DNA of 64,000 bases, from the NCBI GenBank assembly GCA_030374765.1, contig JARGXX010000097.1, positions 930,001-994,000 on the forward strand, read 5' to 3'. Made by a program: the position numbers and the translations under genes. Positions within the stretch are counted from its first letter, which is position 1. Each line of letters begins with the position of its first letter. Origin of the DNA: Agarophyton chilense. Lineage: Eukaryota > Rhodophyta > Florideophyceae > Gracilariales > Gracilariaceae. Positions 12,763 to 49,100 of the stretch are shown here, one piece after another. The notes under the pieces are model-generated. The model did not search any database. It worked only from the letters and a program-made list of their open reading frames with translations, and was not told where the DNA came from.

Positions 12763-13678
12763 TGTAGAGCAACGCCCAGTTAGGGGATACTTGAAGATGC
12801 AACTCATAGAATGAGGATTGAACCCTCCGAGGGTTATGATTATGATCCCCTCTATGGTGTGCTGAGGTGGCACTGTTTTCTGGTTATATTTCGCCTATAA
12901 GGGAAAAATTCGGATGGCCCATGGTTGGATTGGCCCCGTGATACACGTGGCTTAATTTTGGCACCGAATTTCGGATATTTGTTAGAACGTTGGATTTTTG
13001 GGCCCTGGCAGTGGGAGCTCCACGTGTATGGTCCTGAGCTGGTGTGCACTACTGTACAGTTTAGTTAGTGGGCCCTACTCAGGGAGGCGAGATCTGACAG
13101 TCCGAGCTCAGAGTAAATGACAACCAAGGTTGATCTTCGATACCTTTAGAGGTTCTTCGTCGCTATCGTTTCGGCCTTACAACCCGGAACGGGCTCTGGT
13201 TAGCAACGCCTGCGTAGGGACACGACTCCACTTGGAGAGTGCCCACGTTTGGGTTCCGTGCAACCACCCCCTTGGGACCGTTCAGACGACCTGCGTGCAC
13301 GATACCCCGTGGGGGTTCTGCTTACTTGTTGCGTGCTTTTTGTGTTTCCTTTCGAGGACAAGTTTTCGCCCCTGTATTGGGTTTCTTTTGTTGTTTCGCC
13401 CGTTTTCTGGTTCTCGGGTCCGGTGCCTGTTAGTGCCCGACCCTCGCCCCGTTTTTCCTCTTCGCCGGATTTTCCCCCATTCTTTGGGATACCCATACCC
13501 ATTCCCGATCCAACGGTTTCTACCCCTCACCTCCGTCGGTACTGCCGGAATCCCCCGTGGGAGTTACACCCCACACTACGGGTGGAACGGAGGGCTCTGT
13601 CTCTGAGTCTGCCTCCCCCCAGGGAGCAAGGCTTCGAACACCTTGAGAGCACTTCCCGTCGCCGGGTTTTGCTCCACA
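12763..13678 (+). repeat. 5' LTR of Ty3 B
   Basis: 916 bp, TGTAGAGCAACGCC ... TTTTGCTCCACA. It matches 23648-24561 with about 20 substitutions or small indels, mostly in the left 350 bp, and matches the inverted solo LTR 24842-25755. Long frames inside it are not treated as genes. Confidence 0.92.
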
Positions 13679-13680
13679 AG

Positions 13681-13701
13681 TGGTCTCCCGACTTAGAATC
13701 C
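13681..13701 (+). other. Primer-binding site of Ty3 B
   Basis: TGGTCTCCCGACTTAGAATC begins two bases after the LTR. It starts with TGG as expected for complementarity to a tRNA 3' CCA end. Elements E and F have TGGTCTCCCGACTTTGAAG and TGGTCTCCCGATTTAGAATC in the same place, so a common primer tRNA ending ...GGGAGACCA is likely; I cannot name it. Confidence 0.7.
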
Positions 13702-13905
13702 GTTCTCGGACTTTTGGGTTGGTCATCCACGTGTTGGAATATCTCTTGGAAGAGGAAGCACCGTCGTGAAGATTTGTTGTAGTGGTCCCCTTTGGAAAGG
13801 GTGGAATCGGTTTTTATTTTTGTTTTGTGTTACGTCATCCGTTCTCCGGGAATCTCGTGATCGAATTTCATCGTTACCCCGAATCGTCGGTGTCGTGTCT
13901 GCAGC

Positions 13906-15936
13906 ATGTCGCCGCCTACCCGTGGTTCCAGGACTGGATCGAACCGTCAAGCGGATTCAATGCCCCCGGCCCCGCCTAGGTCGAGGAGCTCAATTCCCGA
14001 AGGTCGGAACGATTCCGGTATCGATCCGGACACTCGGAGAGCACCCTCAGTGGTTTCAGGTCCTCGAGAGGTCGTGGCTGTGGGCCCAGCTCCAGTGGTG
14101 GAGACCCCCTCAGCAGCACCCCGAAGTCAGGCCGACCCTGAATTACAGCGCCTGGAGACTCGAATTGATATCGCCAACGCGGCTCACATCGAGCTCCTTC
14201 AGGAGGTTACTACCCTCCGCCTCAAGGTGGAGGACGCCCAGGTGCGGGGAGTCGCCGATGACCTTCGTACCCTGAGGAGGGATGTGAACTTTTTTTTGGA
14301 AAGCTTTGGTACCCCTGGGGTCTTTATCCAGGAGTACCGGAACCTCGTGGAGGAACACCGCGTGCAAGCGGAACGCTTCCGAGCTCGGCTGGACACCCTC
14401 GAGGCCATTATCCGTATGGACGGAGACGCAGAAGCCTCGAAGGATAAACCCGACGTTTCGGAAGACGAAGAACACCGCTCCGCTAAACGGGCCCGCCGCA
14501 AGTCCAAGAAGATGGTTCACCTCCAAGAGGATTTATCGGATTCCAATCCCAATCGCTCGTCATCGAGTTCGTCCTCCGAATCTTCGGATAGTGAAGATGG
14601 ACGCCGTTCATCCCGGGCGACTCGGTCGAAGGCTACTTACACCTCTCAAGGGGCAATTCGTACCCGGAAGAAGGGTAGGAAACACCTTGGATTAAGGGAG
14701 CTGAAGCCGACGAATCCTCTCTATCGGAAGCTGCTATCGTACCGCTATTACCGGTTGGATAACCCTTCGAGAGATCGAACATCCCGCGGAACGGGTAAGG
14801 TCAAGGACTACATCAAAAGGCTGAGCATCACCCTACAGAAGAGGGAGTTCACAAAAACAGACCCAATTCTGGTGCTCGATTTCCTTGCGAGGTTCGTCCA
14901 GGAGGCTGGCATCCTCGGTATGAGTGAAGCGCAAGCGTATCTTGCATTACCCTATTTCTTAAAGGGGATGGCTGAAGACCAGTTCAACTCCGTCCGTGGA
15001 TCATCCCGAGCCTCGGAAGGGGGAGTCACGTGCTGGCCCGAAGCGGTGCAGTACCTCTTGAGGTCATACGCTACTGGAAATGCGATTCAGGAAGCAACCC
15101 TTGCATTAAGGGATACGCGGCAGAAGCCGATGGAAACCAAAACGGTGTATTCAACTCGCTTGAATAAAGCGTTTCACAGATGCGGGAATATATTCCCCGC
15201 CTACGAGAGATGCTCCATGTTTGTGGATGGTTTGGACCCCTCGATAAGGGCATTGGTTGCCCGACATCGGGAAGAGAAGCGCAAGCTGACCTACTTGGAA
15301 CTGGTTCAGTACGCCCAGGCTGAGGGGGATACTCTCCGTGCCCGGCAGAACCGGAAGAGTCGGCCGACACGTGCATTCCTCGCCGATGGAGGTAACTCGT
15401 CTTTGTCACTCGCAGGAGGCCCTACCCCTGTGGGGGTCAATGATAACATTCACTTCATGGGAAGTAACCCCGAATCTATGGGTACGTCTGAGTTGCAGTC
15501 GACATCCGCTCCGACTACGGATGAAGACCCTGCGCTCTATACCCACGGACGGAGGGTGCCAGCCGCATCGCTACCTTTTGCGAATACCGCTGCTCCGTTC
15601 TCTCGCCCCGGATGGAGGGATACAGCACCACGTCCCCTGGATTCACGTCCACAACCGAACCCGGCAGAGCTGATTTGCTATTTGTGTTACCTCCGTGGTC
15701 ACAAAGCACCAGACTGCACATTTCCCCTGCGGGAGGGTTCACGAATTATCGCTCAGTACGAGGCTCTGACCCCTGAGGAGAAAGCTCGAGTCCCGAGTAG
15801 GTCCTATGAGGAACAAAGGATACTCCGAGCTCACCTTGCTGACAGGGATACAGAACTTGTACGCGCGAACGGGGAACAACCGGTCCCCTTCGAGGCAGCT
15901 GCACCGAATTCGGTGGGGTCCGCTTCGAAAAACTAA
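13906..15936 (+). CDS. gag: Ty3 B Gag
   Basis: 676-aa structural protein of the particle. N-terminal Pro/Ser-rich stretch, a probable coiled coil (about residues 80-145), a Ser/Asp-rich acidic segment (about 190-245), a retrotransposon-Gag core (about 265-510, including MAEDQFNSVRGSSRASEGGV) and one CCHC zinc knuckle C591-x2-C-x4-H-x4-C604. Element E Gag has the same layout and shares long identical blocks. The frame is uninterrupted, and the first Met at 13906 aligns with the start of the conserved Arg/Ser-rich segment in E. It ends AAA AAC TAA inside a frameshift signal. Confidence 0.9.
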   Translation: MSPPTRGSRTGSNRQADSMPPAPPRSRSSIPEGRNDSGIDPDTRRAPSVVSGPREVVAVGPAPVVETPSAAPRSQADPELQRLETRIDIANAAHIELLQEVTTLRLKVEDAQVRGVADDLRTLRRDVNFFLESFGTPGVFIQEYRNLVEEHRVQAERFRARLDTLEAIIRMDGDAEASKDKPDVSEDEEHRSAKRARRKSKKMVHLQEDLSDSNPNRSSSSSSSESSDSEDGRRSSRATRSKATYTSQGAIRTRKKGRKHLGLRELKPTNPLYRKLLSYRYYRLDNPSRDRTSRGTGKVKDYIKRLSITLQKREFTKTDPILVLDFLARFVQEAGILGMSEAQAYLALPYFLKGMAEDQFNSVRGSSRASEGGVTCWPEAVQYLLRSYATGNAIQEATLALRDTRQKPMETKTVYSTRLNKAFHRCGNIFPAYERCSMFVDGLDPSIRALVARHREEKRKLTYLELVQYAQAEGDTLRARQNRKSRPTRAFLADGGNSSLSLAGGPTPVGVNDNIHFMGSNPESMGTSELQSTSAPTTDEDPALYTHGRRVPAASLPFANTAAPFSRPGWRDTAPRPLDSRPQPNPAELICYLCYLRGHKAPDCTFPLREGSRIIAQYEALTPEEKARVPSRSYEEQRILRAHLADRDTELVRANGEQPVPFEAAAPNSVGSASKN

Positions 15937-15992
15937 ACTTGGGAGTCTCCCCTGCGGGAGGGGCGTCTTCTAAGCCGGAGTTGAAGACGCCC
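15927..15992 (+). promoter_or_regulatory. Putative -1 ribosomal frameshift signal, gag/pol of Ty3 B
   Basis: GAAAAAC (15927-15933) immediately precedes the gag stop TAA, and pol continues in the -1 frame with no stop in the overlap. Thirteen bases downstream lies hairpin CTCCC-ctgc-GGGAG (15947-15960), followed directly by a perfect 10-bp stem GGGCGTCTTC / GAAGACGCCC (15961-15970 with 15983-15992). Element E has the canonical G-GGA-AAA at the same codon distance and the same two hairpins at the same spacing. Confidence 0.65.
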
Positions 15993-18455
15993 GAGGCGCT
16001 CCAGCTTCGCTCCCCAGCTGTGACTATCCTTTCAAGGAGAACGGCTGACACCGACGTTAACTCGGGATACTTTAGTGTCCTCCGTCGCCCGTGGATACGG
16101 TCCCGTAATCTCCGTATTCCGGATCGAGTTATGGTAATGGCCAAGCGGAAGTATAAAGTATTTGCCGACTTCGGCCTGTCCAACCAGTTTATGGTTCGTC
16201 AAATATCTGTCCTGGATAGAGGAGCCGCTCCTAACTTAATTCATGTGGAATTGTTACCCCCGCTGCTCCGGGTCCAAGTTCGTACCGGTCCACGTTTGGA
16301 TATCGCCGATGCGAACAACCACCCGCTACGGACACTGGGTACAATTTCCCTCATGGTGAGGTTAGGCTCCTATCTCGTTCAGCTAGAGTTTATTGTATGC
16401 AAGTCACTTGCAGCACCAGTCATACTGGGTTGTGACTTTTGCGACCGCTTCGTGGAAGCCATCCGTCCTCGGAATAGAACTGTGGAACTTGAAGACGGGT
16501 CTACGATCCCAATCGTTCGTAAACCCTTACAGGGAGCAGCGCGAACACGCGTTCCTCTCCCTGTCGCGCAGGAATCTGTGAAGAAGGACCCGGTTTCTAC
16601 ACGGGTAAAGGTTGCGAAGTCAGTGGCTATCCCGCCGGAAACCCAGGTTTGGGTCACGGTTGTTACCAAGCAAATTGGTGTGCATGTGGTACAACTGAAC
16701 CCGTCTCTGTATACGCGGCGTCAACTCGCCCTTGCGAATGGGGTTGTCTCCGTGGAACCGGATAAACCTTTCAAGGTTTTGGTAGCCAACTTTGGAAAGA
16801 CAACGCAGCATTTGGTCAAACACCAGATCCTGGGTTCTGTTCTTCCACACCCGCATGCAGTCGTACCTACAAAGATCTCTATCGCAGAGGTCCTTGGTGT
16901 GGCGGACCCTAAGGAGGGGGAGGACACTGCCGAAATCGCGGAAGACGGTGAGCATACGACTGCAGCTCCACACACTGAACACTTTAAACCTCAGGAGGTT
17001 ACGGCCCCTATCACAGGAGCAGACAAGACGGATTCTGTTCAGGAATTGGAAAAATGGGATCTTAACCATGTACCCGCATCTCATCGGGAGAAGCTGAGGC
17101 ACATGCTTCGTGAATTTACCCCCATGTGGGATGGTTCCCTTGGAACTATTGGGATTACAGAACACCGCATCGACTTGTTACCGAACACTCGGCCTCTTGC
17201 CCAACACCCTTACAGGGCTGGACCGAAAGCTCGGGAAGAGGAGAAATCTCAGGTGGAGAAGATGCTTAAAGCGGGCGTAATTGAACCTGCCCAGTCCGCT
17301 TGGGCCTCACCAGTGGTGTTAGTTCCGAAACCGGATGGATCGTGGCGTTTCTGCATCGATTACAGACGCCTGAACGAGGTAACCATTAAGGATGTGTACC
17401 CGATCCCTCGGATGGACGAATACATCGACTCCCTTGGGAGCACTACTGTTTTCTCTACCCTCGACGCCAATTCGGGCTACTGGCAAGTCCCTATTAGGGA
17501 GGAAGATGGAGACAAAACGGCTTTCGTGTGTCATCAAGGACTTTTCCGATTCCGGAGAATGCCTTTTGGGTTGACAAATTCCCCCGCAACGTTTCAACGG
17601 GCGATAGACATTCTGCTGGCTCCCTTCAAGTGGAGGACGTGTCTAGTGTATTTAGACGACATTATTGTCTTCTCCAACAACCTGGATGACCACCTCGAAC
17701 ACGTCAGGGACGTAATGAAGATACTCCGCGACGCGGGAATCACCTTGAAACTCAAGAAGTGCGAGTTTTTCACCGATTCGGTTAAGTATCTGGGTCATAT
17801 CATCCGTCCCGGACAGCTTTCAATCGATGAAGTACGAGTGAAATCCTTGAAGGAAGCAAAACACCCGAAAACTCAAACGGAGTTGCGATCCTTCTTAGGT
17901 CTGTGTAACGTGTATCGCCGATTCGTCCCGAACTTTGCGGATATTGCCACCCCCCTCAACAGGCTCCTGACGAAGGGACAACCAGTTGAACTGGAACCTT
18001 TTGGCGACGCGGAAGCGTCTGCCTTCACGGCACTGGTGAATGCCGTAACATCACCGCCAATCTTGGCTCTACCCAATCCTGGGCTCCCTTACGAAGTGGA
18101 CACCGATGCTAGTGCAAACCAAGTAGGTTGTGCACTGTTCCAATCCTCTGAGGATGGTGAACGTCACCCTATTTGGTACTGGTCACGTTCCCTGAATGTC
18201 CATGAAAGGAACTACTCGGTCTCCGAGAAAGAATGTTTAGCTGTTGTGTGGGTCTTAGCTACACTTCGCCCCTATCTGATGGGTACTCGTTTCAAAGTCC
18301 ATACGGACCACGCATGCTTGCGTTGGCTCCTGGAGATCTCCGAACCGTCGGGCCGCCTTATGCGCTGGCGTCTCCGACTGTCGGAATTCGACTTTGAGAT
18401 CCTGTACAAGAAAGGGAAGCTGAACACTCAGGCTGATGCACTATCCCGCTTGTGA
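15939..18455 (+). CDS. pol: Ty3 B Pol part 1: protease, reverse transcriptase, RNase H
   Basis: 838 codons in the -1 frame of gag, probably made by frameshifting rather than from its own ATG. Protease: VLDRGAAPNLIH at about 92-103, where the catalytic DTG is changed to DRG; element E keeps DTG. RT: FCIDYRRLNEVTIKD, FSTLDANSGYWQVPI, and YLDD at 571-574, all intact. RNase H: DTDAS at 721-725, ENYSVSEKE-type Glu block, HTDHACLRWLL, and QADALSRL at the end. UGA at 18453 stops the frame exactly between RNase H and integrase, while the same frame reopens into integrase. Confidence 0.88.
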   Translation: MGVSPAGGASSKPELKTPEALQLRSPAVTILSRRTADTDVNSGYFSVLRRPWIRSRNLRIPDRVMVMAKRKYKVFADFGLSNQFMVRQISVLDRGAAPNLIHVELLPPLLRVQVRTGPRLDIADANNHPLRTLGTISLMVRLGSYLVQLEFIVCKSLAAPVILGCDFCDRFVEAIRPRNRTVELEDGSTIPIVRKPLQGAARTRVPLPVAQESVKKDPVSTRVKVAKSVAIPPETQVWVTVVTKQIGVHVVQLNPSLYTRRQLALANGVVSVEPDKPFKVLVANFGKTTQHLVKHQILGSVLPHPHAVVPTKISIAEVLGVADPKEGEDTAEIAEDGEHTTAAPHTEHFKPQEVTAPITGADKTDSVQELEKWDLNHVPASHREKLRHMLREFTPMWDGSLGTIGITEHRIDLLPNTRPLAQHPYRAGPKAREEEKSQVEKMLKAGVIEPAQSAWASPVVLVPKPDGSWRFCIDYRRLNEVTIKDVYPIPRMDEYIDSLGSTTVFSTLDANSGYWQVPIREEDGDKTAFVCHQGLFRFRRMPFGLTNSPATFQRAIDILLAPFKWRTCLVYLDDIIVFSNNLDDHLEHVRDVMKILRDAGITLKLKKCEFFTDSVKYLGHIIRPGQLSIDEVRVKSLKEAKHPKTQTELRSFLGLCNVYRRFVPNFADIATPLNRLLTKGQPVELEPFGDAEASAFTALVNAVTSPPILALPNPGLPYEVDTDASANQVGCALFQSSEDGERHPIWYWSRSLNVHERNYSVSEKECLAVVWVLATLRPYLMGTRFKVHTDHACLRWLLEISEPSGRLMRWRLRLSEFDFEILYKKGKLNTQADALSRL

Positions 18456-20471
18456 ACCACAGCGGAAACGGAACCCTACGAGGACGATGACATCCCATGC
18501 TTTATGGTATCGGACCTCAAGGGAGGAGCTCAACCGCTGACGGATGATGTTTCTGACGATATACTCGTCAACGAGAGTCTGGATTCGCCGACCGGCTCTT
18601 TTATACCTATCTCTCCAGAGGAGATGATACCCAAGCAACAGCTCGACCCATTCTGTACACGGATTCGGGCTCGCCTCAACAGAGGATTTCAGTTACCTTT
18701 CGAGGACGACGATCAGGGTTACCTAATCAGGACCGTTGGACCTCGCCCGAGGATAGTTGTGCCGCCCACCCTACAACAGAGGGTATTACAACTCACTCAC
18801 TATGTGAAGGTATGCGCCCACCCCAGGGGAAGAAAATTGTACCTCACGTTGAGAAGGGACTTTTACTGGCCGGCAATGGCATTCGATTGTTACGCCGTCA
18901 GACGGGCCTGCGCCATTTGCGCCAAGAATGACGTCAAACTTCGGAAGCACTCTAAGAAGTTGACGCTGTTCCCGGCACGGGCTCCACTCGAATTCCTGGC
19001 CATAGACATCCTAGGGGAGATTATCAAGACGCCCCGAGGTCATCGGTATCTGCTTGTCATTTTTGACAGATTCTCAAAGCTAACGAGAACTGTGCCGCTG
19101 AAGCGGATCACCGCCGCTACCGTCGCGCAAGCGTTCGTGACCCATTGGGTGTTCGTATATGGACCGCCGGTGCAGTTGTTATCCGACAACGGAGGGCAAT
19201 TCGCATCAAAGTTCTTTCAGGATGTATGTCGAATCCTTGATGTAAGGAATTTATTTGTTACTACGTATCACCCTCAGAGGAATGGCCAGGTGGAGAGGTT
19301 TAACCGCACGATACTCAACGCTTTGAGATCGTATGTGGCGGATCACCCCAAAAATTGGGACTTGTACACAGACGCTATCACGTATGCATACAACACCCAG
19401 GTACATCGGGTTACATCGTTATCCCCATTCGAACTGGTACTGTCGAGGACACCGCCGCCGGTCGCCATCGAGGCTCAACCGACGCTGTCGACGTACCCGT
19501 CACCGGGATTGTACCGAGAAGCCTGGAAGGAGTGGCTTACGAAGATGGTGCCGATAGCCCGGAAAGCAATGGAAAAAGCTCAACGCGCCTACAAGAAGGA
19601 CTTTGACAATCGGGTTCGCAAACCTCTACCTCAGGTGGAGCCCGACGACTTCGTCTTCCTTCGAAAGGAATACTACAATCCTGAAAAGGAACGTAGGCAC
19701 AAGCTTTCGCCAATTGTGGACCGACACTATCGTGTGGTTTCTGTAGACCCGGACACGGTGGTATTGGATATCGCTAACCGCCACGAACGGATCTCCAGGG
19801 ACCGCATCACACGAGCGCCCAACCCAAATGTGGAAGTGGTGTCGGCACCAACGCCCTCCACAGGGGATGATTCAGCGGAAGTTAACCCGTCAGGCGGAGA
19901 TTCGAACAACCGCCCCGTTATACTTCCGCACCCGGAACGTGGTTTAAACGACCTACCGGAAACTTCGGAAACTCCCGAACCTGGGCCCGCTCCCTCAAGG
20001 GCCCAGTCAACGAACTCTTACAGAGTTACTCCCCCACCGGAGGTAATCAAGGCTCATGGCTCTCCGCCTAAGGAGGGGGAGGAGGACTTAGTTCCTTCGC
20101 AGGACGATGTTTCGGCGTCAGCCAGTCGCCCTAACAGGGAATCTAGTTCTCACAGTGAGACGGCGAGCCCGATCGAGCCGGCGACAGAGAAGTCACAACC
20201 CCAGCATATGGGTAGCGACATCACCGCCAACCCAGCCGAGCACGACGTCAGAAAAGATGACGAAAACCCGCCTAGGGATAGTCGTGTGGAGAACTCCGCA
20301 CCTGGAACGCCTACAGAGCCGACGATCACCCGCCGCCGCGGAAGAGACACTGAGGTGTCGCACACTCAAACCCCGCTTTCTCGGGAACGAGCTGTGTCAG
20401 CGGACCCGCACGGGGAAGATCTCGACGACGAGGTTAACCAAATTTGGCTCTCCGTTATGGAATGGGAATAG
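18456..20471 (+). CDS. pol: Ty3 B Pol part 2: integrase
   Basis: Same frame as the upstream pol, beyond the UGA; the first Met is at 18504, and numbering is from there. Zinc domain H99-x6-H106 and C136-x2-C139. Catalytic D168, D228 and E264 with the classic 35-residue D-E gap, all intact. A GPY/F-like module (KLSPIVDRHYRVV) follows near 400, then a Pro/Ser-rich tail ending at a TAG. The element E homologue runs without break from RNase H through integrase to chromodomain, so the UGA and TAG here are probably lesions. It acts on the element cDNA in the nucleus. Confidence 0.85.
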   Translation, partial: TTAETEPYEDDDIPCFMVSDLKGGAQPLTDDVSDDILVNESLDSPTGSFIPISPEEMIPKQQLDPFCTRIRARLNRGFQLPFEDDDQGYLIRTVGPRPRIVVPPTLQQRVLQLTHYVKVCAHPRGRKLYLTLRRDFYWPAMAFDCYAVRRACAICAKNDVKLRKHSKKLTLFPARAPLEFLAIDILGEIIKTPRGHRYLLVIFDRFSKLTRTVPLKRITAATVAQAFVTHWVFVYGPPVQLLSDNGGQFASKFFQDVCRILDVRNLFVTTYHPQRNGQVERFNRTILNALRSYVADHPKNWDLYTDAITYAYNTQVHRVTSLSPFELVLSRTPPPVAIEAQPTLSTYPSPGLYREAWKEWLTKMVPIARKAMEKAQRAYKKDFDNRVRKPLPQVEPDDFVFLRKEYYNPEKERRHKLSPIVDRHYRVVSVDPDTVVLDIANRHERISRDRITRAPNPNVEVVSAPTPSTGDDSAEVNPSGGDSNNRPVILPHPERGLNDLPETSETPEPGPAPSRAQSTNSYRVTPPPEVIKAHGSPPKEGEEDLVPSQDDVSASASRPNRESSSHSETASPIEPATEKSQPQHMGSDITANPAEHDVRKDDENPPRDSRVENSAPGTPTEPTITRRRGRDTEVSHTQTPLSRERAVSADPHGEDLDDEVNQIWLSVMEWE

Positions 20472-20575
20472 GAACTCCTATGGAGACACTGGAACCCTCA
20501 GAAATGGGAAAGAAATGAGTGAGACCCGTCGGGGACAGCTCAGGAGAGTGCTAGCGCGTGCCGAAAGCGCCACCT

Positions 20576-20739
20576 CATATCCGCTTGCGGAGTGGCAACC
20601 GGCGCCCGCGCATTTATGTGGCCCACGTCGAATGGCACCGAGCCAATCAAAAGGCTCTAACGACCGACCGTCGCGCAACCCGCCTCACTGAGCCAATCAA
20701 AAGGCTCTGACGACCAACCGTCGCGCAAACCGCCTCCTT
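20576..20739 (+). repeat. 50-bp tandem pair and a dispersed 33-bp repeat
   Basis: Two adjacent 50-bp units (20640-20689 and 20690-20739), each starting GAGCCAATCAAAAGGCTC, a small hairpin enclosing CCAAT. Just before it, TATCCGCTTGCGGAGTGGC and following bases (about 20577-20610) recur at about 21853-21886 in the same orientation, inside the antisense ORF region. Confidence 0.7.
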
Positions 20740-21020
20740 CGCACGGCGCGTTGCACAAGAGCAACCTTCGTCCCCGTATCTCGCGTTGACGTTGAAGTCT
20801 CACCCCCCTGAGATTGGAGACGTTACCGTGTCGCGGTTTCTCAACTGTCACGGAATCTAAGAACACTGTTGTTATCGAGAAGATCTCAGCTTTAAGAAGA
20901 ACCCAAAACTGGGCCGTTTTGACTTCGTAGACGGAAGTTACAACGTAGCCCACAGGCCACTCGGCGCCGTTTGGACGAAGTGCTGAGACCCGCTCGCAAC
21001 ACGGAAAAGAACCCACCGGA

Positions 21021-21311
21021 GTGTGTCTAGACCATACGTTGACACCCTCAAGGGAACTAGAGCGTTCCAAGATGGAAGAGAAGCCCGAACAGGGAAAAGT
21101 GTACCCGCAGGAATTCGTTATCGATCGCATCGTGTGTCACATCTACACCCCCGAGGGAGAAGTTCGCTACCAAGTCCGATGGTACGGATTCTCGCCTGAT
21201 GAGGATACAGTGGAACCCATTGAGCACCTTCCGAGGTCTAAGGTTTTATCCTATCACCGACGCGCTCGGGTAACCTTGCCTCCAAGTCTGGATCGTGCCC
21301 AAGTCGGGTGA
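21021..21311 (+). CDS. Ty3 B chromodomain (pol C-terminus)
   Basis: 96 codons in the same frame as integrase, cut off by stops in 20472-21020. It reads YPQEFVIDRIVCHIY ... YQVRWYGFSPDEDTVEPIEHL, a chromodomain with the aromatic residues around RWYGF and E-P-IEHL. Element E has the same module fused to integrase. In Ty3-type elements this module targets the integration complex to chromatin. The start codon is uncertain because it belongs to the polyprotein. Confidence 0.75.
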   Translation: MCLDHTLTPSRELERSKMEEKPEQGKVYPQEFVIDRIVCHIYTPEGEVRYQVRWYGFSPDEDTVEPIEHLPRSKVLSYHRRARVTLPPSLDRAQVG

Positions 21312-21477
21312 GCCACCACGGGAACTGGTGTGGATGGGACCTCGAGGTGAGGAAGATGTTGGACCTCTGAAGAGGAATTCAGGAGAGTATCCCGAAGAAC
21401 ACGTATTGAGAGGGAATGTCTACTGGCCCTCGGCCTAGCGCCGTTAACCGGGGAACAAAGCACCGGTTATCGGGACA

Positions 21478-21645
21478 GTTTATGATGAAAAAAAGGAAAG
21501 GAAGACCCACGAAGTGGAGAAGAAGATTAAGAAGAAGATTGGACCCTAGGAAGGGAAGAAGATGAAGACGAAGATGAAGAAGATCCTAGGAAGGAAGAAG
21601 AAAAGAAGTAGAAGTTAAGATCCTAGGAAGGAAGAAAAAAAGAAG
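21478..21645. repeat. Purine-rich low-complexity tract
   Basis: About 170 bp of almost pure A/G on the plus strand with repeated GATCCTAGGAAGGAAGAA units. It lies in the gap between the convergent ends of pol and the antisense ORF of element B. Confidence 0.7.
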
Positions 21646-21711
21646 TTATGCAAATATCAGAAGTTTACTATTGTCGCCAAGCTATGGACTCCACAATTGC
21701 CCGAAGCGGAA

Positions 21712-23568
21712 CTACGGAAAGCCTGAGGAGGGACCAGCCCCACCGTTGGGATTCTGACCCTGATGGTACGCCGAGGCGAAAGCCAACATCTGGCTCACAT
21801 CCGCCATACCCGGGGGAATCGGAATGCCTGCGTTCACGAGGCCTTGTCGCACACTATCCGCTTGCGGAGTGGCAACCGGCGCCTGCGCAAGGGTGTTCAC
21901 ACCCCACCCGGGGGGAGCAGATGGACCGCCACCGGATGCATTCGCCGCCGCAGCTGAGGTCTTTCCCACTGGTTGGAAGGGTGCAGATGGCTCCACAGGG
22001 AGTACTCCACTAGGAGCTGGCACGTCGTTATCCAACGCTGGATCGTCCAGGTCTACTGGAGGCTCGTACTCGTAATCGTCGGTATAAATGAACCCCGTCG
22101 GGTGTCCCACCGGCATCGGTCGAGGCGAGTCAATCAGCGCCCGTGCTTGCGCCGCGCTGATGCGAACCCCTTCGAAGGGATTGTAATAGACCCAGTTACC
22201 GGAGCCCGGATCGTACCGGCCAGGAGACTTGTCTCGCGCGGATCCTTCCCCTGCGGGTTGATTTGCCACTGGAACTCGATCCCATTAGGTGTTGTCAATC
22301 ACGTCCAAGATTGGATACAGGTCCTGCACGTTGCTGGCCGAACCCAACGCTGGGACAAGGTCGATCTGACGCATGATGGTCCGTAGCATCGGAGGAATAT
22401 ACCAGATACGGAAATGGTCATGAGCATCCCAGAGGAGGTGCGCCGCTACGCGGGCTGCCCACTCGGCTGCAACGAGGGCCCAGTATCCCGAGTTCGGGTC
22501 GTGCATCAAACGAGACCCGATATAGTAGATGCACGGGGGCAGTTCAGCAAAGCACCCTCGGGGGACCTCGACCTTACTCCACCAAGCTGGAAGGGGCACG
22601 AATCGTCCAACCTTCGCCGTGTTACGGATACGCTCCAGTTCCACGTGAGGATACGAGACAAGGAACCCGAAACGGGAGCGCGAGCGGCGCTCGAAGCGCA
22701 CGCGTCGATCGAACCCATACTGGGTAAACTGTCGTTGAAGGTACCTGAATTCAGCCCGAAGGATGGGACGACTCCATTGGAGCATATTTTCTCGGAGAGG
22801 AAAACCCGGTCCGCGAAACTCGGCTTCGGGAAAGGCTGCCAGGTTATCCCCGTAGGAGACCTCACCGTACGTGCGGTAATAGGCGACATCGAACCCGTAC
22901 TCCGGGGGAACCAGATCGTCAAGGCGTGACCTCTCCAATCGCTGGTAGGCCAGATCAGCCATCGCTGCGCGCGCCTTGTCCAGGGACTCCCCGCGACTGC
23001 GGTATAGATACTGAGGCTCTATGGCTACCCGCGCCCTCCAATCGGGAGAACGTACAACCTCAACAGGTAGGCCACCCGGCAATAAGCCGTCCTCCACGTA
23101 GGCGTCGATGAGCTCATCGTCGCGAACCGCTGTCGGATGGAACCACGGAGCGCGGGAATATATCACCGGATCGGTAAGGGGACTCCACCTTCGAAAGGAT
23201 TCGTTTGAGATCCAACCTCTGGAGTTTGCTACCAAGGGCATCGCATGAGCGGAGTTCCACGCCACCGCGGTGATGTCCAAATCCTCCAGAGGATGTCGGT
23301 TGCCCGCCGAGGCGGAAGGTTCGGTACCTGACGGAGCCGCCTCCAAACCGGAGAAATATCCACCCTGCTGGGGAGCTTCGTTTTCCGCCGGCGCGGAGGC
23401 CGATGGCCCCGAGAGTGGGTTGATGACGTATGGGTTCATTCCCTTGAGAGGGCTAGTCGAGACCGCTGTTGCGAGAAGTTGCGTATCGCCGAAAGTCGGA
23501 GGAGTAGATGAAAGTTGTACCGATGTGCCGGTTTTGTGGCGATCCTCAGAAGTGGTGAAGGACCCCAT
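21712..23568 (-). CDS. Conserved antisense ORF of Ty3 B (one internal stop)
   Basis: Reverse-strand frame of 618 codons broken by a single TAA at 22287-22285; both halves are in one frame. It starts 79 bp inside the 3' LTR and runs toward the end of pol. Layout: Ser/Pro-rich N-terminus (1-100), a Trp/Arg-rich core (about 110-425) and an acidic then Ala/Gly/Pro-rich C-terminus. The core shares many blocks with the element E antisense ORF, such as APWFHPxAVRD, RPILRAEFRY, LPxWWS and GCFxELPP. The sense strand here has only short frames. I recognise no known domain. Antisense additional ORFs are known in some plant Ty3 elements and antisense genes in some retroviruses, but homology to those is not shown. 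Confidence 0.8.
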
Positions 23569-23634
23569 TGGGAGAAGTATGTATAGTGATCGGAAAGTTA
23601 GACACCCGCGGCTCGGAATGTTCTTCCTCGTCTT

Positions 23635-23647
23635 AAGGAGGGGGAGA
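23635..23647 (+). other. Polypurine tract of Ty3 B
   Basis: AAGGAGGGGGAGA directly before the 3' LTR. It is preceded by TCTT, as in element E (TCTTAAGGGGGGGATA). This is the plus-strand DNA priming site. Confidence 0.8.
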
Positions 23648-24561
23648 TGTAGAGCAACGCCCAGTTAGGGGATACTTGAAGATGCAACTCATAGAATGAG
23701 GATTGAACCCTCCGAGGGTTATGATTATGATCCCCTCTAAGGTGTGCTGAAGTGTCACTGTTTTCTGGTTAGAGTTCGCCTAGAAGGGAAAATTCGGATG
23801 GCCCATGGTTGGATTGGCCCCGTGATACACGTGGCTTAATTTTGGCACCGATTTTCGGATATTTGTAGAACGTTGGACTTTTGGGCCCTGACAGTTGGAT
23901 CTCCACGTGTATGGCCCTGAGCAGGTGTGCACTACTGTAGAGTTTAGTTAGTGGGCCCTACTTAGGGAGGCGAGATCTGACAGTCCGAGCTCAGAGTAAA
24001 TGACAACCAAGGTTGGTCTTCGATACCTTTAGAGGTTCTTCGTCGCTATCGTTTCGGCCTTACAACCCGGAACGGGCTCTGGTTAGCAACGCCTGCGTAG
24101 GGACACGACTCCACTTGGAGAGTGCCCACGTTTGGGTTCCGTGCAACCACCCCCTTGGGACCGCTCAGACGACCTGCGTGCACGATACCCCGTGGGGGTT
24201 CTGCTTACTTGTTGCGTGCTTTTTGTGTTTCCTTTCGAGGACAGGTTTTCGCCCCTGTATTGGGTTTCTTTTGTTGTTTCGCCGGTTTTCTGGTTCTCGG
24301 GTCCGGTGCCTGTTAGTGCCCGACCCTCGCCCCGTTTTTCCTCTTCGCCGGATTTTCCCCCATTCTTTGGGATACCCATACCCATTCCCGATCCAACGGT
24401 TTCTACCCCTCACCTCCGTCGGTACTGCCGGAATCCCCCGTGGGAGTTACACCCCACACTACGGGTGGAACGGAGGGCTCTGTCTCTGAGTCTGCCTCCC
24501 CCCAGGGAGCAAGGCTTCGAACACCTTGAGAGCACTTCCCGTCGCCGGGTTTTGCTCCACA
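23648..24561 (+). repeat. 3' LTR of Ty3 B
   Basis: 914 bp. It differs from the 5' LTR at about 20 places, yet I find only about two differences (at one spot, AGTTAGGGG versus AGTCCGGGG) from the inverted solo LTR 280 bp away. Confidence 0.92.
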
Positions 24562-24841: not shown

Positions 24842-25755
24842 TGTGGAGCAAAACCCGGCGACGGGAAGTGCTCTCAAGGTGTTCGAAGCCTTGCTCCCTG
24901 GGGGGAGGCAGACTCAGAGACAGAGCCCTCCGTTCCACCCGTAGTGTGGGGTGTAACTCCCACGGGGGATTCCGGCAGTACCGACGGAGGTGAGGGGTAG
25001 AAACCGTTGGATCGGGAATGGGTATGGGTATCCCAAAGAATGGGGGAAAATCCGGCGAAGAGGAAAAACGGGGCGAGGGTCGGGCACTAACAGGCACCGG
25101 ACCCGAGAACCAGAAAACCGGCGAAACAACAAAAGAAACCCAATACAGGGGCGAAAACCTGTCCTCGAAAGGAAACACAAAAAGCACGCAACAAGTAAGC
25201 AGAACCCCCACGGGGTATCGTGCACGCAGGTCGTCTGAGCGGTCCCAAGGGGGTGGTTGCACGGAACCCAAACGTGGGCACTCTCCAAGTGGAGTCGTGT
25301 CCCTACGCAGGCGTTGCTAACCAGAGCCCGTTCCGGGTTGTAAGGCCGAAACGATAGCGACGAAGAACCTCTAAAGGTATCGAAGACCAACCTTGGTTGT
25401 CATTTACTCTGAGCTCGGACTGTCAGATCTCGCCTCCCTAAGTAGGGCCCACTAACTAAACTCTACAGTAGTGCACACCTGCTCAGGGCCATACACGTGG
25501 AGATCCAACTGTCAGGGCCCAAAAGTCCAACGTTCTACAAATATCCGAAAATCGGTGCCAAAATTAAGCCACGTGTATCACGGGGCCAATCCAACCATGG
25601 GCCATCCGAATTTTCCCTTCTAGGCGAACTCTAACCAGAAAACAGTGACACTTCAGCACACCTTAGAGGGGATCATAATCATAACCCTCGGAGGGTTCAA
25701 TCCTCATTCTATGAGTTGCATCTTCAAGTATCCCCGGACTGGGCGTTGCTCTACA
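24842..25755 (-). mobile_element. Solo LTR of the Ty3 B family, inverted
   Basis: 914 bp, the reverse complement of 23648-24561, flanked by the perfect duplication GGTAG (24837-24841, 25756-25760). It is an independent insertion into copia C RNase H that later lost its body, probably by LTR-LTR recombination. With the 3' LTR of B it forms an inverted repeat of 914-bp arms around a 280-bp loop. Confidence 0.9.
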
Positions 25756-27214
25756 GGTAGATCGCGTCTTTCTGCATCGGACCAAGGAGTAAACCAGTAA
25801 CAATGCCGAGTTGGCCGACGTCGTCAATGCGCGATGCATCAGCAAAAACTAGAACAGAGAGCTCGTAGGCTTTGTCATGAGAAGGGCGTGGATAGGCAAT
25901 CACAGTTCCAAGCTTCTTGAGCTTTTGAACGATTGAGGCTTGCTCAACGAGGTGTGAGACTTTGAGTTCGGGTGCCTTTTGCTGGAGGTAACTCGCATAA
26001 AATGAACAGACGGGTGTAGCAGCGGTGCCAATCCATCCGATCGAGCTATTGGTTGAAGAAAAGGCTGACTTCTCTAACTTGTTCATCGGGTCTTCGGACT
26101 GCTTTCGGCGAATGCGGGTGAGAGAATATTCAGAAAGAGCGTTAAGCTTGTCTTCTGCGTTGGTTTCAATCGAAAAGTCATCATGTTGCACTGTGTTGAT
26201 GCCGAAATAGCGGAGTTTCCCAGGGCCGCTGTTGATTTCGCCAAACTTGAACTTCTTGTAAAATTCTTCTAGAAAGCGGAGAGCGTTGTCCTCAGTACCG
26301 GCAGCTTTGAGGTCATCCACAATTTTTGCCACGAGCAGTGTTAGCTTACCATCCTTTTTCTTGTAGAAGAGTTGCGGGATAAACTTGGACTGTGTTAGAC
26401 CGAGGTCTATCATTACTGCATCGGACTGACTTTGCCATTTTGCATTTGCGTTGACCAAACCATAGGCTGCAGTGAGCAAGAGCCAAACATGGGAGGACTT
26501 CATGGCGCTTTCTTTCGGCAGGCGAACGTAAACATCACGCTGAGCTGCGCCGGTTTGTAAAAAGGCGGCTTTGACATCGGCCTTGTACAATTTCCAACCA
26601 AACAGAGAAGCAATAGACTCTAGTACGCGCAGACCGGTTGGCGGGCACGTAGAGCGGTCAGTACTCAGGAAATTCTTGAGTGCGTCTTCGTTGCCATGAG
26701 GTGCGATGCGCGCCTTCAGTTTCAAACTGTTATCGTCGTTGTGCTTCAGTTTGTACAGTGTGTGGCTGCTAATGACGTTGGCAACAGGGAGAACGTCGCA
26801 GTGATAGACGGGGCGTGCCGTCTCTAAGAAAGTTTCTTCTTCACGTGCGTACGCGTGGACGAGGGAAAACTGGTCGAATCCTTGGGCTTGATGGCGCAAG
26901 AACGGTTTGTTGCCGAAGTGTTCGAGCATGGAGGATAGAACAGCGGCTTCAGTGCTTGTCACTTGCACATTTCCACCGGACAGACTGCTGCTTGCAGCAG
27001 CTAGCGAAGTGGGCTCGGAGTGATTCCAATGTACGGTTGTCATATCTAAGTCTGCTTCGACTTCACTATTGTCATAATGAATGGTCACGGTACCGTTATC
27101 TGCTTGCGAGTGAACAACACCAGGGTAAACAACATTGTTTTCGTCCCAGAGTATATCAAGACGATCACCAACTGCAGGTCCATTGTTACCGTCATCAGAA
27201 AAGTTGCCGTGCAC
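25751..27214 (-). CDS. pol: Copia C reverse transcriptase (truncated by solo LTR)
   Basis: Frame of 488 codons, -1 relative to the upstream gag-integrase frame; the true polyprotein is probably one ORF with a one-base lesion near 27255. It contains the linker region, then RT blocks LKARIAPHGNED, LYKADVKAAFLQTG (motif A Asp), AAYGLVNANAKW and VAKIVDDLKAAG (catalytic DD intact), FGEINSGPGKLRYFGI, then VFADASRIDD, the first RNase H Asp. The last few codons run into the solo LTR. The first Met is not a natural start. Confidence 0.8.
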   Translation of the reverse strand: MHGNFSDDGNNGPAVGDRLDILWDENNVVYPGVVHSQADNGTVTIHYDNSEVEADLDMTTVHWNHSEPTSLAAASSSLSGGNVQVTSTEAAVLSSMLEHFGNKPFLRHQAQGFDQFSLVHAYAREEETFLETARPVYHCDVLPVANVISSHTLYKLKHNDDNSLKLKARIAPHGNEDALKNFLSTDRSTCPPTGLRVLESIASLFGWKLYKADVKAAFLQTGAAQRDVYVRLPKESAMKSSHVWLLLTAAYGLVNANAKWQSQSDAVMIDLGLTQSKFIPQLFYKKKDGKLTLLVAKIVDDLKAAGTEDNALRFLEEFYKKFKFGEINSGPGKLRYFGINTVQHDDFSIETNAEDKLNALSEYSLTRIRRKQSEDPMNKLEKSAFSSTNSSIGWIGTAATPVCSFYASYLQQKAPELKVSHLVEQASIVQKLKKLGTVIAYPRPSHDKAYELSVLVFADASRIDDVGQLGIVTGLLLGPMQKDAIYL

Positions 27215-29838
27215 GTAACGGTCGTGGACCAGTAGGTTTGAATCGTCACGGTCATCCGTGTGCTCAGTTGGGGGATATCACTGAGAAGGTCAAAAAGTGA
27301 GGCGTCAAGGGAGTCAATCCCTTCTTGAACGAGCTGTGCAAAACAAAGTGGGGACATGGCGGGTCGAGTATCTTCAAAGGCTACAGTGAGACATCGGCCG
27401 TTTGCACCGGGAACGGTGATGGAGCGGGCAGGAAGATCGACCGAGAGCACAGTTTTGGGTTGGGACCATTTGCCACGCTTCTCTTTCTCTTTCTTCTGGA
27501 AAATTTCCACGGAGTCGCCAATGGCGATTGGTGCTTCGGTGAGTGCTTTAGAGCGCATACTGAGTGCCAGCTTGCGACGAGCTTGGAGCTGTTCACGGGC
27601 ATCAATGACATCGATGGGGACACAAAGTTCAGCAGGCTTTGAACTGACTGGCTTTGTAAACCCTTTCGCCAGTTCAAATGCTGACATGATATCGTTACCA
27701 TAGAGATCGTTTGAGATCGACACAGATTTGTATGCAGCAAGGACAGCATCGAACTCATCACCACTACCTTCTTTGAGACGGAGAAAGACGGACCGAATAA
27801 TGTTGTGCTTAGATTCGATGGCGTTCTTGTGATGCGGACGAGGTGGAACTGTCTTGATGGGGATGCTGAGTGCATTAGCATAGTTTTTGGATGCGCCGGT
27901 GTTGAATGCTTTGTCACCAATGATTGAGTCAGGATACCAGAACAGCGCTACCCAGGTTGCTTCGAAGCCGATTACAGCTTCATGAAGAGCAGTTGTACTG
28001 ACAACATACGCGACGGAGTAGCGCGAGGACACATCCATGAAATGAAGGACACACAGGCCTTCGAGGAAGAAGTGATCAACAGATAGCACTTCGTTGAACT
28101 CTTTCGACAAAGAGCTGATAGAAACTTTCCGGGACGGAGCTGGAGGAGAGGTTGACAGACAGGCGGTGCAAGCGTTGACAACTTCAGTAAGGTAGCCAGA
28201 CACAACATCGTTCCACAGACCATTACGTTCGAGCAGAAGCTTGTAGTCGGAAAAGGCGGCATGTCCACACACATGCTTATGGATCTTGTCGATTACACTC
28301 TTGACCTCAGTCCACGGTGACAGATCGAGGGAAACCGCAGACATGCGTGAGAGTGACGATCCAGTGTTAATGTTAGCTGATGGCATAGTCGGAAAAAAAC
28401 ACTCGAGCTTGATGAAGTCAAGAAAGTTGTGATTCACAATCGAGATGAAATCTTCTTTGCCATTTGCAGCGAGAACCAATGCATTCCGGCCGATGTTTTC
28501 GATGTTTGCCTTGCTTGTCACATTTCGCCCGACGACCCATTGAGACGAGCCGTCAAGCACCAAGTGCCTGATTCGAACTTGGTTACCGTTGTCGGTGTTG
28601 GCCGTAAGAAAAATCGACCCAAGAATATCTCGCGGTTGGCTGGCGTGGTTACCAGTGCCATATTTCCAGGAAGTGTATCCAGAAAGTGCGGCAGGAATCG
28701 GGTCAAGAGCGGGGTCGGTTTGCAGGCCAGAGTGGTCAGCGAGCATGTTGAGCTCGACCATACTGATTGCCGAGTATGGAGCGCCACTGTCCAAGAGAGG
28801 TCCAAAGTGCATCGGTGACTCCGTTGATCCATCAAAAGTGGCCATGTTGAAGGAAAAAGTTTGTTGTTTGGAGGAATTCGAGGACGATGCAGCAGATACA
28901 GAAGACGAGCCAGAGGCTGCTCCTCGGTTGTTAGACTGATTGGACGAGTTGGACGAGTTGTTGCCAGTCGGAACTTGCTGGTTGTCGAAGGACTTCACAC
29001 CAGGGGCTAAGGAGCCATCAGCACGGTGATTCCGTTTCCAGTGGCCATACTTGCCATAGGTGTCACATGGATTCTTCATGGTGGGAGAGATGCGGTTGCG
29101 ATCACCGTTCCTAGAGTTTCTGTTGTTGGAACTGTTGCCAAAGCCATCGGAGCTGTCATTCAGTGTGCCGTTTGTGGTGGGCGAGCGAGCAGACTTGTCG
29201 CACTGTTTGATTACGGATTCCACGGAGGAATTGGTGACAGCAGACAGGTACTGATCATTACTAGATTGGGCACCGAGGTTTTCATCTGAGGGAGACGCAG
29301 CGGCCATAACGGAAACACGTTGTGCGTCATCAATGGAAGCATTGGACAGCAGCATGAGTGCTGTGAGGCATTCTGGCAACTTGGTTGTATTCGAGATCGA
29401 ATTAAACTTTGCTACCTGTGCAGAGAAACGGGACTCGAAGTTCTTCATGTTTTCCGAGTTCCCACAACGGGTGTTCAAGAGCACGTTGAAGGTGTTGTAG
29501 GCTTCACTCACGACGGAGAGAGCGTCACGCTTGTAGATTGCACCGACGATCAGAGCGACTGACCCTTCTCCAACGAGCTGGGCGTCAGTAATTCCGGAAC
29601 ACAGGTCCTTGGCACGTCCATACAGTTGGGACTTGAGACAAACAGCCTGCAACGCTGCAGGAATCTTGGTGTTGTTATTAACGGGTAGTGCATTGTGAAA
29701 CGTCTGCCACAAACTAACAGCATCGCGATATTCTTCCTGGTCTCCTTTGCCGTCAGTCCAAGGCGGAGATTTGGAATCCCAGGAAAACTTGGGCCTGGGA
29801 GGGAGGTCCTTGGGCGAGGGCGTAGCCTGGTGGCCCAT
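27085..29838 (-). CDS. gag-pol: Copia C Gag, protease, integrase
   Basis: 917 codons without a stop. Gag about residues 1-240 with a knuckle-like CDTYGKYGHWKRNH (258-271) in which two of the four CCHC ligands are replaced (Y, H). Protease LLDSGAPYS with D350. Integrase: zinc region HKHVCGH ... CTACL, then LSVDHFFLEGLCVLHFMDVSSRY, DSIIGDKAFNTG and HHKNAIESKHNIIRS (catalytic D, D, E). The start ATG at 29838 lies inside the primer-binding site three bases from the LTR, so the leader is essentially the LTR itself. The last ~60 residues are out of frame with the family because of the lesion near 27255. Confidence 0.85.
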   Translation of the reverse strand: MGHQATPSPKDLPPRPKFSWDSKSPPWTDGKGDQEEYRDAVSLWQTFHNALPVNNNTKIPAALQAVCLKSQLYGRAKDLCSGITDAQLVGEGSVALIVGAIYKRDALSVVSEAYNTFNVLLNTRCGNSENMKNFESRFSAQVAKFNSISNTTKLPECLTALMLLSNASIDDAQRVSVMAAASPSDENLGAQSSNDQYLSAVTNSSVESVIKQCDKSARSPTTNGTLNDSSDGFGNSSNNRNSRNGDRNRISPTMKNPCDTYGKYGHWKRNHRADGSLAPGVKSFDNQQVPTGNNSSNSSNQSNNRGAASGSSSVSAASSSNSSKQQTFSFNMATFDGSTESPMHFGPLLDSGAPYSAISMVELNMLADHSGLQTDPALDPIPAALSGYTSWKYGTGNHASQPRDILGSIFLTANTDNGNQVRIRHLVLDGSSQWVVGRNVTSKANIENIGRNALVLAANGKEDFISIVNHNFLDFIKLECFFPTMPSANINTGSSLSRMSAVSLDLSPWTEVKSVIDKIHKHVCGHAAFSDYKLLLERNGLWNDVVSGYLTEVVNACTACLSTSPPAPSRKVSISSLSKEFNEVLSVDHFFLEGLCVLHFMDVSSRYSVAYVVSTTALHEAVIGFEATWVALFWYPDSIIGDKAFNTGASKNYANALSIPIKTVPPRPHHKNAIESKHNIIRSVFLRLKEGSGDEFDAVLAAYKSVSISNDLYGNDIMSAFELAKGFTKPVSSKPAELCVPIDVIDAREQLQARRKLALSMRSKALTEAPIAIGDSVEIFQKKEKEKRGKWSQPKTVLSVDLPARSITVPGANGRCLTVAFEDTRPAMSPLCFAQLVQEGIDSLDASLFDLLSDIPQLSTRMTVTIQTYWSTTVTCTATFLMTVTMDLQLVIVLIYSGTKTMLFTLVLFTRKQITVP

Positions 29839-39026: not shown

Positions 39027-39470
39027 TGTGACGCAACGAATGGTGGGTCAGCGTACTGTTCTCAACCCGAGGTAGCTTAGTAGAGCGGGTCCAAAGGTCC
39101 TTATCCTTGACTGTGGAACTCCCAGAGTACTTGGTGTAATGGGCCGGCGTTTACTACGTAGTCCTACAGGTCAGAGCTCCGGAAGCGATGCCTTGAAGAT
39201 CAATTGGTGGAACTAATATACCAAAGGAGGTAGTTTAGTATCTCAACGGTGCCTACCCGATCTTAAGGTAGAAGCGTAACTCAAGCCAAGTAAATATCAA
39301 TGGCAAGGCGCTGAGATCTCCATTGCACTGTAAGGCTATTTTATCACAACTAAATAAAAAAAAAATTCTCTAATATGTCCAGCTGAGGTCGGCCAGTCCA
39401 CTTGGCGTCTGTAATATACCTTAGGCCCTGGCGACTAACAGGACTCAACCGTAATCGGTGCTCCTTCACA
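39027..39470 (-). repeat. 3' LTR of Ty3 F
   Basis: About 444 bp. Element-sense start TGTGAAGGAGCACCG resembles the LTR starts of B and E (TGTAGAGCAACG, TGAAGAGCAACG). The purine tract AAGGAGGGAGATA adjoins at 39471-39484. It includes an A-run (CTAAATAAAAAAAAAATTC). Confidence 0.7.
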
Positions 39471-39484
39471 TATCTCCCTCCTTG

Positions 39485-40539: not shown

Positions 40540-40779
40540 GTAATGTTTGTGCTTTCTTTTAAGTCGATCCTGTATTCCTCAAACGTGCATGCCTTCGGAC
40601 GCCGTCCGAACCTTGAGAGCTTCTTCGTGTCTTACCCAGGTTTTGCCTGAGAACTAACGTTTTTCCCTGATGCGGGAGATACCACGGACCGACGTGTCGG
40701 GAGGCGTATCGAGAGGCATTTTGGTACTATTCGGGCCAATGGTTGCTCCCTTCTAAAGTCGGTGCTCCGTGCTGCCTAT

Positions 40780-40960
40780 TTTGCGCAAATAGCGGGCGAT
40801 AAAATTAGCCGGAATGGTTTGAGGCTTTTGCCAAGTGCCTTCCTTAGGAGTATAGCCAAACCAACGGTCGCGATAGCGCATTATCCCATCTTCTCCCTGA
40901 CCGGCGGGGATGATTCCTTCAATAACGTATTGCAGTCGGTGTTCCTCCTCCGGAAGGAGA
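40780..40960 (-). pseudogene. Ty3 F chromodomain
   Basis: Reverse-strand reading QYVIEGIIPAGQ ... MRYRDRWFGYTPKEGTW, aligned with YQVRWYGFSPDEDT of B and YRTRWYGYGPEWDT of E. Confidence 0.6.
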
Positions 40961-49054: not shown

Positions 49055-49070
49055 TATCCCCCCCTTAAGA
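49055..49070 (-). other. Polypurine tract of Ty3 E
   Basis: Sense TCTTAAGGGGGGGATA just before the 3' LTR, matching the TCTTAAGG(A)GGGGG core of element B. Confidence 0.75.
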
Positions 49071-49100
49071 CAGCGCGAACACCTCGAAGAGGAAGTCGGC

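Follow-up and report, generated by a model that had tools for sequence, protein, structure and literature searches.

Antisense open reading frames (ORFs) located between pol and the 3' LTR are already known from the LTR retrotransposons Grande, RIRE2, Retand, PvRetro13 and Boty, and for this class the name aORF-3R, meaning antisense additional ORF between pol and 3' LTR, is used in the sections of the literature that deal with it (PMC7264820). In the parts of that work that treat them, antisense third genes of LTR elements are described from flowering plants and a fungus and their function is given as unknown, antisense transcription is demonstrated for Grande and Retand, and gene23 of Grande is reported to be nuclear and to have an antisense transcript driven by a promoter located upstream of it (PMC7264820). 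Regarding Retand, a DNA-binding or regulatory role has been proposed for its antisense proteins in the passages that concern them (PMC11963269). The initial annotation of the DNA studied here had remarked that some plant Ty3 elements hold antisense genes, which is correct as far as these accounts go (PMC7264820). For red-algal LTR elements we found no report of antisense ORFs in the open-licence PMC literature.

We analysed a window of 64,000 nucleotides from the red alga Agarophyton chilense, which is the whole stretch of DNA to which the coordinates below refer, and two of its Ty3/gypsy elements, E and B, carry an ORF or a homologous frame of this kind. We regard it as a selected antisense accessory gene, with a probability of about 0.93, and it would represent the third protein-coding gene of a chromodomain-bearing Ty3/gypsy lineage in a red alga. 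The antisense placement, the retention in several families and the purifying selection on the amino acids can all be read from the sequences themselves.

Both elements have separate gag and pol genes. Element E occupies positions 48192-59584 on the minus strand, and comparison of its LTR pair gave 97.8% identity between the 3' LTR (48192-49054) and the 5' LTR (58722-59584). Its gag (56487-58598) encodes 703 aa, 48% identical to the gag of B, and its pol (51210-55301) encodes reverse transcriptase (RT), RNase H, integrase and a C-terminal chromodomain, the last one recognised by Pfam as PF00385 with E = 4.9e-6. The RT clade is a separate criterion, since chromodomain Ty3 elements exist outside the chromovirus RT clade according to the part of the literature that deals with them (PMC12477816). 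Element B occupies positions 12763-24561 on the plus strand, with LTRs at 12763-13678 (5') and 23648-24561 (3') that are 97.7% identical, and a gag of 676 aa at 13906-15936. Its pol (16131-20471) is one frame with a single in-frame stop at 18453-18455, placed between the RNase H and integrase parts, and the frame continues on both sides of it. The chromodomain end of B pol (21090-21308, 57% identical to that of E over 74 aa) is in the same frame as pol, with several stops between 20471 and 21090. Polypurine tracts were read directly at 23635-23647 in B and at 49055-49069 in E, where the tract lies between the LTR and the antisense ATG. The target-site repeats, read from the flanks, are GATAC on both sides of B and an imperfect pair around E.

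An inverted B-type LTR lies at 24842-25755, 280 bp from the 3' LTR of B, and is 100% complementary to it over 914 nt, being closer to this LTR than the two LTRs of B are to each other (97.7%). Next to element B, on the minus strand (25751-29838), two ORFs (430 and 917 aa) resemble, on visual inspection, a Ty1/copia-type polyprotein. At the beginning of the window there is an inverted repeat with arms of 1090 nt (1-1090 and 1324-2413), 98% complementary and separated by 233 nt. A third chromodomain Ty3 element, D, is decayed and lies at 39027-47562 on the minus strand, with LTR pieces that are 82-86% alike and a pol that is 43% identical to that of E. We recognised no copy of the antisense ORF in D, where no open frame longer than 164 codons is present at the expected place. 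Element D shows that, at the level of sequence, the antisense ORF is not universal among chromodomain Ty3 elements.

The antisense ORF of E (49101-50876, plus strand, thus opposite to gag-pol) sits between pol and the 3' LTR and is intact from ATG to stop, with 591 aa. The homologous frame of B (23568 to 21712, minus strand) has 618 codons and is interrupted by an in-frame TAG at codon 428 (22285-22287), leaving 427 open codons. The initial annotation had described an ORF of about 600 codons in both elements, which is right for E and not for the B copy of the window. It had also placed the starts 79 or 46 bp inside the 3' LTR; the distances from the LTR edge to the antisense ATG are indeed 46 bp in E and 79 bp in B, but according to the LTR coordinates both starts are in the internal domain, outside the LTR. 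The ORF ends convergently with pol, as had been noted, and in E its end is 333 bp from the pol stop. Furthermore, the conservation claimed for the two proteins was confirmed by aligning them, as they are 44% identical over 289 aa (E = 2e-70). In view of the copy number, the open frame, the substitution pattern and the conservation across families, the observation exceeds what chance would give in such sequences.

The genome searched comprises 79.8 Mb in 135 contigs, and among the matches listed for a kinase gene of the window those with a name were two Agarophyton chilense proteins, at 75% and 67%. It holds at least 74 E-type and at least 98 B-type copies of the ORF, and besides these there are at least the types F and G, as well as a type H (L039) that is broken; the other types are 47-52% identical to the E antisense protein. 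A search for the ORF in other Ty3 copies, which the initial annotation had suggested, was therefore positive. Regarding the placement, 65 of 68 loci taken from the protein searches have the chromodomain end of pol turned towards the ORF, corresponding to 62 of 65 distinct places, and a facing chromodomain end was not found in L039, L055 and L057. Among the matches listed for the E type (74 antisense ORFs and 122 RTs) we could form 46 ORF/RT pairs, all of them on opposite strands, with a spacing of around 5.3 kb in 27 pairs, around 4.0 kb in 17 and otherwise in 2. Five E-type pol loci were fetched from the 76 that had no listed partner, and all five carry the LTR and the start of the antisense ORF, although at the end of the fetched stretch one LTR was seen as its last 39 bp and one ORF as its first 15 codons. 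The sequence upstream of the F ORF gave 40 matches, which included several same-strand pairs 9.7-11.1 kb apart, as would be expected of an LTR-like sequence. Some E-type antisense ORFs with equal scores occur at regular steps on one strand, namely at positions 3138181, 3147378 and 3156575 of one contig (G000:C68; 9197 bp steps) and at 295889 and 305138 of another (C77; 9249 bp apart), and this spacing resembles head-to-tail arrays of elements with common LTRs.

It is also conceivable that the ORF is a captured host gene that still serves the host and stands beside the LTRs by accident. The homologs in Gracilariopsis chorda, which are recorded as ordinary hypothetical proteins and whose contigs measure 70-445 kb, would be compatible with this idea. 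However, the position and orientation relative to LTR and pol are fixed in nearly all the loci tested and no single-copy host homolog was seen among the best candidates scored, and we consider a host gene very improbable.

In order to see how well the frame is kept, we compared in register 33 B-type copies over 618 codons, the window copy included. The stop at codon 428 is present in 2 of the 33, namely the window copy and L036. The antisense frame was uninterrupted in 7 of 8 copies of E, 14 of 33 of B and 9 of 19 of F. Among the best-scoring copies, taken out of 1,780 B-type and 1,881 E-type candidates respectively, codons 1-427 were stop-free in 62 of 98 B-type copies and the whole 591 codons in 47 of 74 E-type copies (window copies included in both). 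Since they refer to the best-scoring copies, these open fractions are too high and the copy numbers are minimum values. Some copies are broken, as expected of old insertions. The initial annotation had named a randomly broken antisense frame next to a conserved sense side as the pattern that would speak against its proposal, and what we found was the opposite: the antisense frame has on average 0.1 (E), 0.9 (B) and 0.7 (F) in-frame stops per copy versus 3-21 in the other five frames, none of which is stop-free in any counted copy.

Regarding the substitutions, we used pairwise Nei-Gojobori counts with the loci turned to match in strand. The dN/dS of the antisense frame was 0.519 in E (8 copies), 0.539 in B (33 copies) and 0.650 in F (19 copies), whereas the four out-of-register frames gave 0.85-1.24. 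These values are well under 1, the level at which the initial annotation would have abandoned selection on the antisense protein, and together with the few in-frame stops they uphold it. One B locus (L038, less than 85% identical in register) and one F locus (L047) were left out, so that 33 of 34 and 19 of 20 were kept, and L039, L055 and L057 fell outside the E, B and F sets. Three loci (L043, L050 and L067) duplicate L012, L017 and L010 in place, and they were counted once in the dN/dS, shared-variant and stop counts.

The mirror sense frame, which has its third positions in common with the antisense frame, gave dN/dS values of 0.53, 0.60 and 0.64 in E, B and F respectively, which are nearly equal to those of the antisense frame, and therefore the strand cannot be told from the numbers of substitutions alone. 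Thus, the conserved frame could in principle be a sense-strand third ORF, env-like or gag-like, with the antisense frame as its shadow. An actual sense ORF of 357 codons exists in E (49161-50234, minus strand), so the statement that the sense strand has no comparable frame was wrong as to the presence of an ORF. Nevertheless, the frame of this ORF carries in E, B and F a mean of 3.0, 8.9 and 6.6 stops, with a minimum of 2, 7 and 6, so that every counted copy (8 E, 33 B and 19 F) has at least 2, and it is without constraint (dN/dS 1.24, 0.94 and 0.99). The mirror frame has a mean of 19.9, 21.2 and 20.1 stops and a minimum of 18, 19 and 17, that is, at least 17 in every copy counted. These stops identify the antisense as the coding strand, and we consider a sense-strand gene extremely improbable.

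Variants common to at least two copies are mostly older than the insertions. Their nonsynonymous/synonymous ratio was 0.33 in E, 0.38 in B (32 copies, L035 having been left out of this test) and 0.51 in F, against 0.69-1.53 when shared variants were counted in any of the four out-of-register frames. In singleton variants the ratio was 0.60-0.75, where the nonsynonymous counts are lowered because the E and B loci were chosen by high protein score, which also raises the open fraction. The difference between shared and singleton variants was significant by Fisher's test when pooled (p = 0.0013) and in B (p = 0.004), but not in E alone (p = 0.22) or in F alone (p = 0.20), and the shared variants of F did not differ from those of register +2 (p = 0.41). 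Over codons 1-400, windows of 100 codons had a ratio of 0.24-0.54 for E and B, and of 0.41-0.88 for F. The constraint is weak at the C-terminus, with window ratios up to 1.09 in E and 0.91 in B, and also at the N-terminus of F (0.82-0.88). The pol tail of the same E copies had a ratio of 0.71, so that the constraint on the antisense gene equals or exceeds that on this tail. Between types dS is near saturation (pS 0.71-0.73), so we give there the differences by codon position instead of dN/dS: 0.36-0.51 at first, 0.33-0.44 at second and 0.60-0.67 at third positions.

These data bear on the possibility that the antisense RNA matters and not the protein, where an LTR-driven transcript would form dsRNA with the genomic RNA and limit the copy number, the ORF being incidental. 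Non-coding antisense RNAs are present in micropia and TART, for which silencing through dsRNA has been proposed in the sections that treat them (PMC7264820), and the start of the present ORF does adjoin the LTR. However, RNA would not protect codons, and here the amino acids are constrained, the frame is open in several types and the proteins of the types remain around 40-51% identical despite nearly saturated synonymous sites. An RNA-only role is therefore improbable, although an effect of the antisense RNA may exist in addition to that of the protein.

Regarding the expression of the selected antisense gene, the ATG is so near to the LTR that an antisense mRNA would have to begin within the LTR or the adjoining few tens of bases. 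The near end of the 3' LTR is U3, so an enhancer of U3 could work both ways, and the 3' LTR of E is a candidate U3 promoter for the antisense gene. Relative to the antisense ATG, the motif CACGTG (G-box) occurs at -222 and -198 in the 3' LTR of E and at -341 and -265 in that of B, which also has CCAAT at -249. Between -300 and -150 CACGTG was found in 8 of 8 E, 31 of 33 B, 18 of 19 F and 2 of 2 G copies, and CCAAT in 8 of 8 E and 30 of 33 B copies and in none of the 19 F and 2 G copies. All four types have the G-box around 180-270 bp upstream, with a chance of 2.4-4.7% per type in shuffled sequences, a figure to be read knowing that motif and window were picked after inspection and that the types have common ancestry. 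No TATA box or poly-A signal could be assigned to the antisense mRNA, and the motifs vary among types. We infer that antisense transcription would begin at the U3 side of the 3' LTR and run against gag-pol, by a divergent use of common U3 control elements such as the G-box, which would drive the genomic RNA the other way. A selected gene with such LTR-driven antisense expression and an accessory role, probably in trans, its molecular activity being left free, is in our opinion the likely reading.

The antisense protein has around 590-650 aa, with an N-terminus rich in Ser, Pro and Thr, an acidic C-terminus and a core of 290 residues that holds 33-35 Arg, 0-3 Lys and 10-15 Trp. The initial annotation recognised no family for it, and neither did we: E, B and 8 members of alignment A2 gave no Pfam match and no match was obtained among PDB sequences, either by single sequence or by profile. 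A match to DUF3905 with E = 0.18 was rejected as it was below the cut-off. By these sequence comparisons the ORF encodes a new protein family. The AlphaFold2 model of the E core, made with 7 sequences, had a mean pLDDT of 44.5 and a pTM of 0.40 and does not support any molecular activity. The maximal Kyte-Doolittle hydropathy over 19 residues was 1.22 in E, 0.93 in B and 1.70 in a single stretch of F, which is slightly above the customary transmembrane cut-off of 1.6. Thus, there was no transmembrane-like stretch in E or B and none common to the types.

Related proteins elsewhere were found in Gracilariopsis chorda (three, one of them added by an alignment-based search) and in two other cases, and these five were the sole matches among the 8000 best word-sharing proteins scored. 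A maximum-likelihood tree with 17 rows grouped the E-type proteins with two G. chorda proteins and one other protein with support 100/100, and the third G. chorda protein was placed across the midpoint, with B, one other protein and H; P0003, P0004 and H_L039 are on long branches and their placement is unsure. As this tree suggests, the divergence of the E and B sides probably predates that of the host lineages, or else there was horizontal movement. E and B share 75% identity in RT-RNase H and 56% in integrase, compared with 48% for gag and 42% for the antisense protein. Likewise, the RT that accompanies an F-type ORF (at C2:270439, next to L041) shares 87% identity with the RT of E, against 48% for the antisense proteins of E and F. 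Judged by these identities, the antisense gene evolves about as fast as gag.

A size and a rate of change like those of gag, together with a conserved core and the borderline hydrophobic stretch of F, might suggest a structural or particle protein made from an antisense mRNA, such as an extra capsid layer or an env-like or movement-like factor. We consider this doubtful, since E and B are without a transmembrane-like stretch, antisense expression would part the protein from the gag-pol mRNA, and no known protein was matched among Pfam families or PDB sequences.

There is also an E class that is around 1.28 kb shorter between RT and the antisense ORF, with 17 copies among the matches listed, which are the pairs spaced around 4.0 kb. 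In the sole copy inspected (L074, G000:C68:1504200-1505500) pol jumps from residue 504 to 940, so that the integrase domains are gone, whereas RT-RNase H and the pol tail are kept and the antisense ORF is stop-free. The ORF is stop-free in 13 of 17 copies of the shortened class versus 14 of 27 of the long class (p = 0.12). If the class has a common deletion, a non-autonomous lineage would have spread with the antisense gene kept, and such a spread would argue for a function of the protein besides the chemistry of integration, or for a cis requirement for its DNA or RNA. The loss of integrase in the inspected copy may separate the antisense protein from the integration step.

The role of the selected gene can be proposed with less certainty. 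The protein may act in trans in the nucleus, either as a regulator of the expression of its own element or against host silencing, and we put this forward tentatively as the most likely activity, at somewhat less than even odds. This idea comes from the lack of a common membrane segment, the acidic and Ser/Pro-rich arms, the gag-like rate and the retention of the gene in the shortened class, whose inspected copy is without integrase. Furthermore, it follows the analogy with the nuclear protein of Grande and the predicted DNA-binding proteins of Retand, as these are treated in the relevant sections (PMC7264820, PMC11963269). A more specific and rather speculative form, which we think unlikely as a whole, is a fast-evolving, sequence-specific nuclear counter-defence factor, produced from the reverse side of the 3' LTR, that would keep its own family expressed against red-algal silencing. 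Anti-silencing proteins exist in DNA transposons, and such a factor would be their LTR-element analogue. If this were true, the factor would recognise LTR or tail sequences of the same family. Protein and target would then evolve as a pair specific to each family, and parasites without integrase would retain the gene since it is what licenses them.

On the other hand, the protein could be a self-limiting repressor that restrains the transposition of its own element. HBZ and Ty1 p22 do restrain their own elements, the sense promoter is a target of antisense 3' LTR genes like HBZ, and high copy numbers might need control. Nevertheless, a trans-acting repressor would be weakly selected per copy, yet the frame is open in so many of the best-scoring E-type copies (47/74) and of the listed copies of the shortened class (13/17), and we think a repressor unlikely.

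When the known systems are compared with the present ORF, its positional features are, on sequence grounds, those of aORF-3R: it is antisense to gag-pol, as in all 46 listed ORF/RT pairs. Its presence in most copies would fit as well, as it accompanies 46 of 122 RTs among the matches listed and all five of the fetched unpaired loci. Regarding env-like third ORFs, these are in sense orientation and the present one is antisense. HBZ is a small spliced bZIP protein, and the present protein differs from it in having no Pfam match to bZIP. HBZ of the deltaretrovirus HTLV-1 is alike in being an antisense gene with an antisense promoter in the 3' LTR, as described in the passage that mentions it (PMC7264820). 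The mussel Steamer-like element MchSLE-1 is alike in being a non-plant LTR element with an antisense mRNA according to the sections that report it (PMC10974842). Retand resembles the present case in its TRP28 (PF04195) ORFs, which are antisense and have the pol-3' LTR position in the account of them (PMC11963269), but it belongs to a non-chromovirus lineage, whereas the pol of E ends in a chromodomain, which would speak against that lineage, and PF04195 gave no match in 8 family members (Pfam, E up to 1). Boty, from Botrytis cinerea, is also a non-plant element, whose antisense ORF lies between pol and the 3' LTR according to the part that describes it (PMC7264820); its host is a fungus and the likeness is one of position. 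Grande gene23 and RIRE2 are alike in their conserved antisense ORF between pol and the 3' LTR, which is present in most copies as far as the cited sections go (PMC7264820), a feature that the present ORF may share. Their hosts are grasses, the present ORF starts 46-79 bp from the LTR, and they are likened here by description. To these systems the red alga adds a case outside any Pfam family, with a selected protein, several diverged types in one genome and relatives in Gracilariopsis, and the question of what antisense third genes do becomes testable here.
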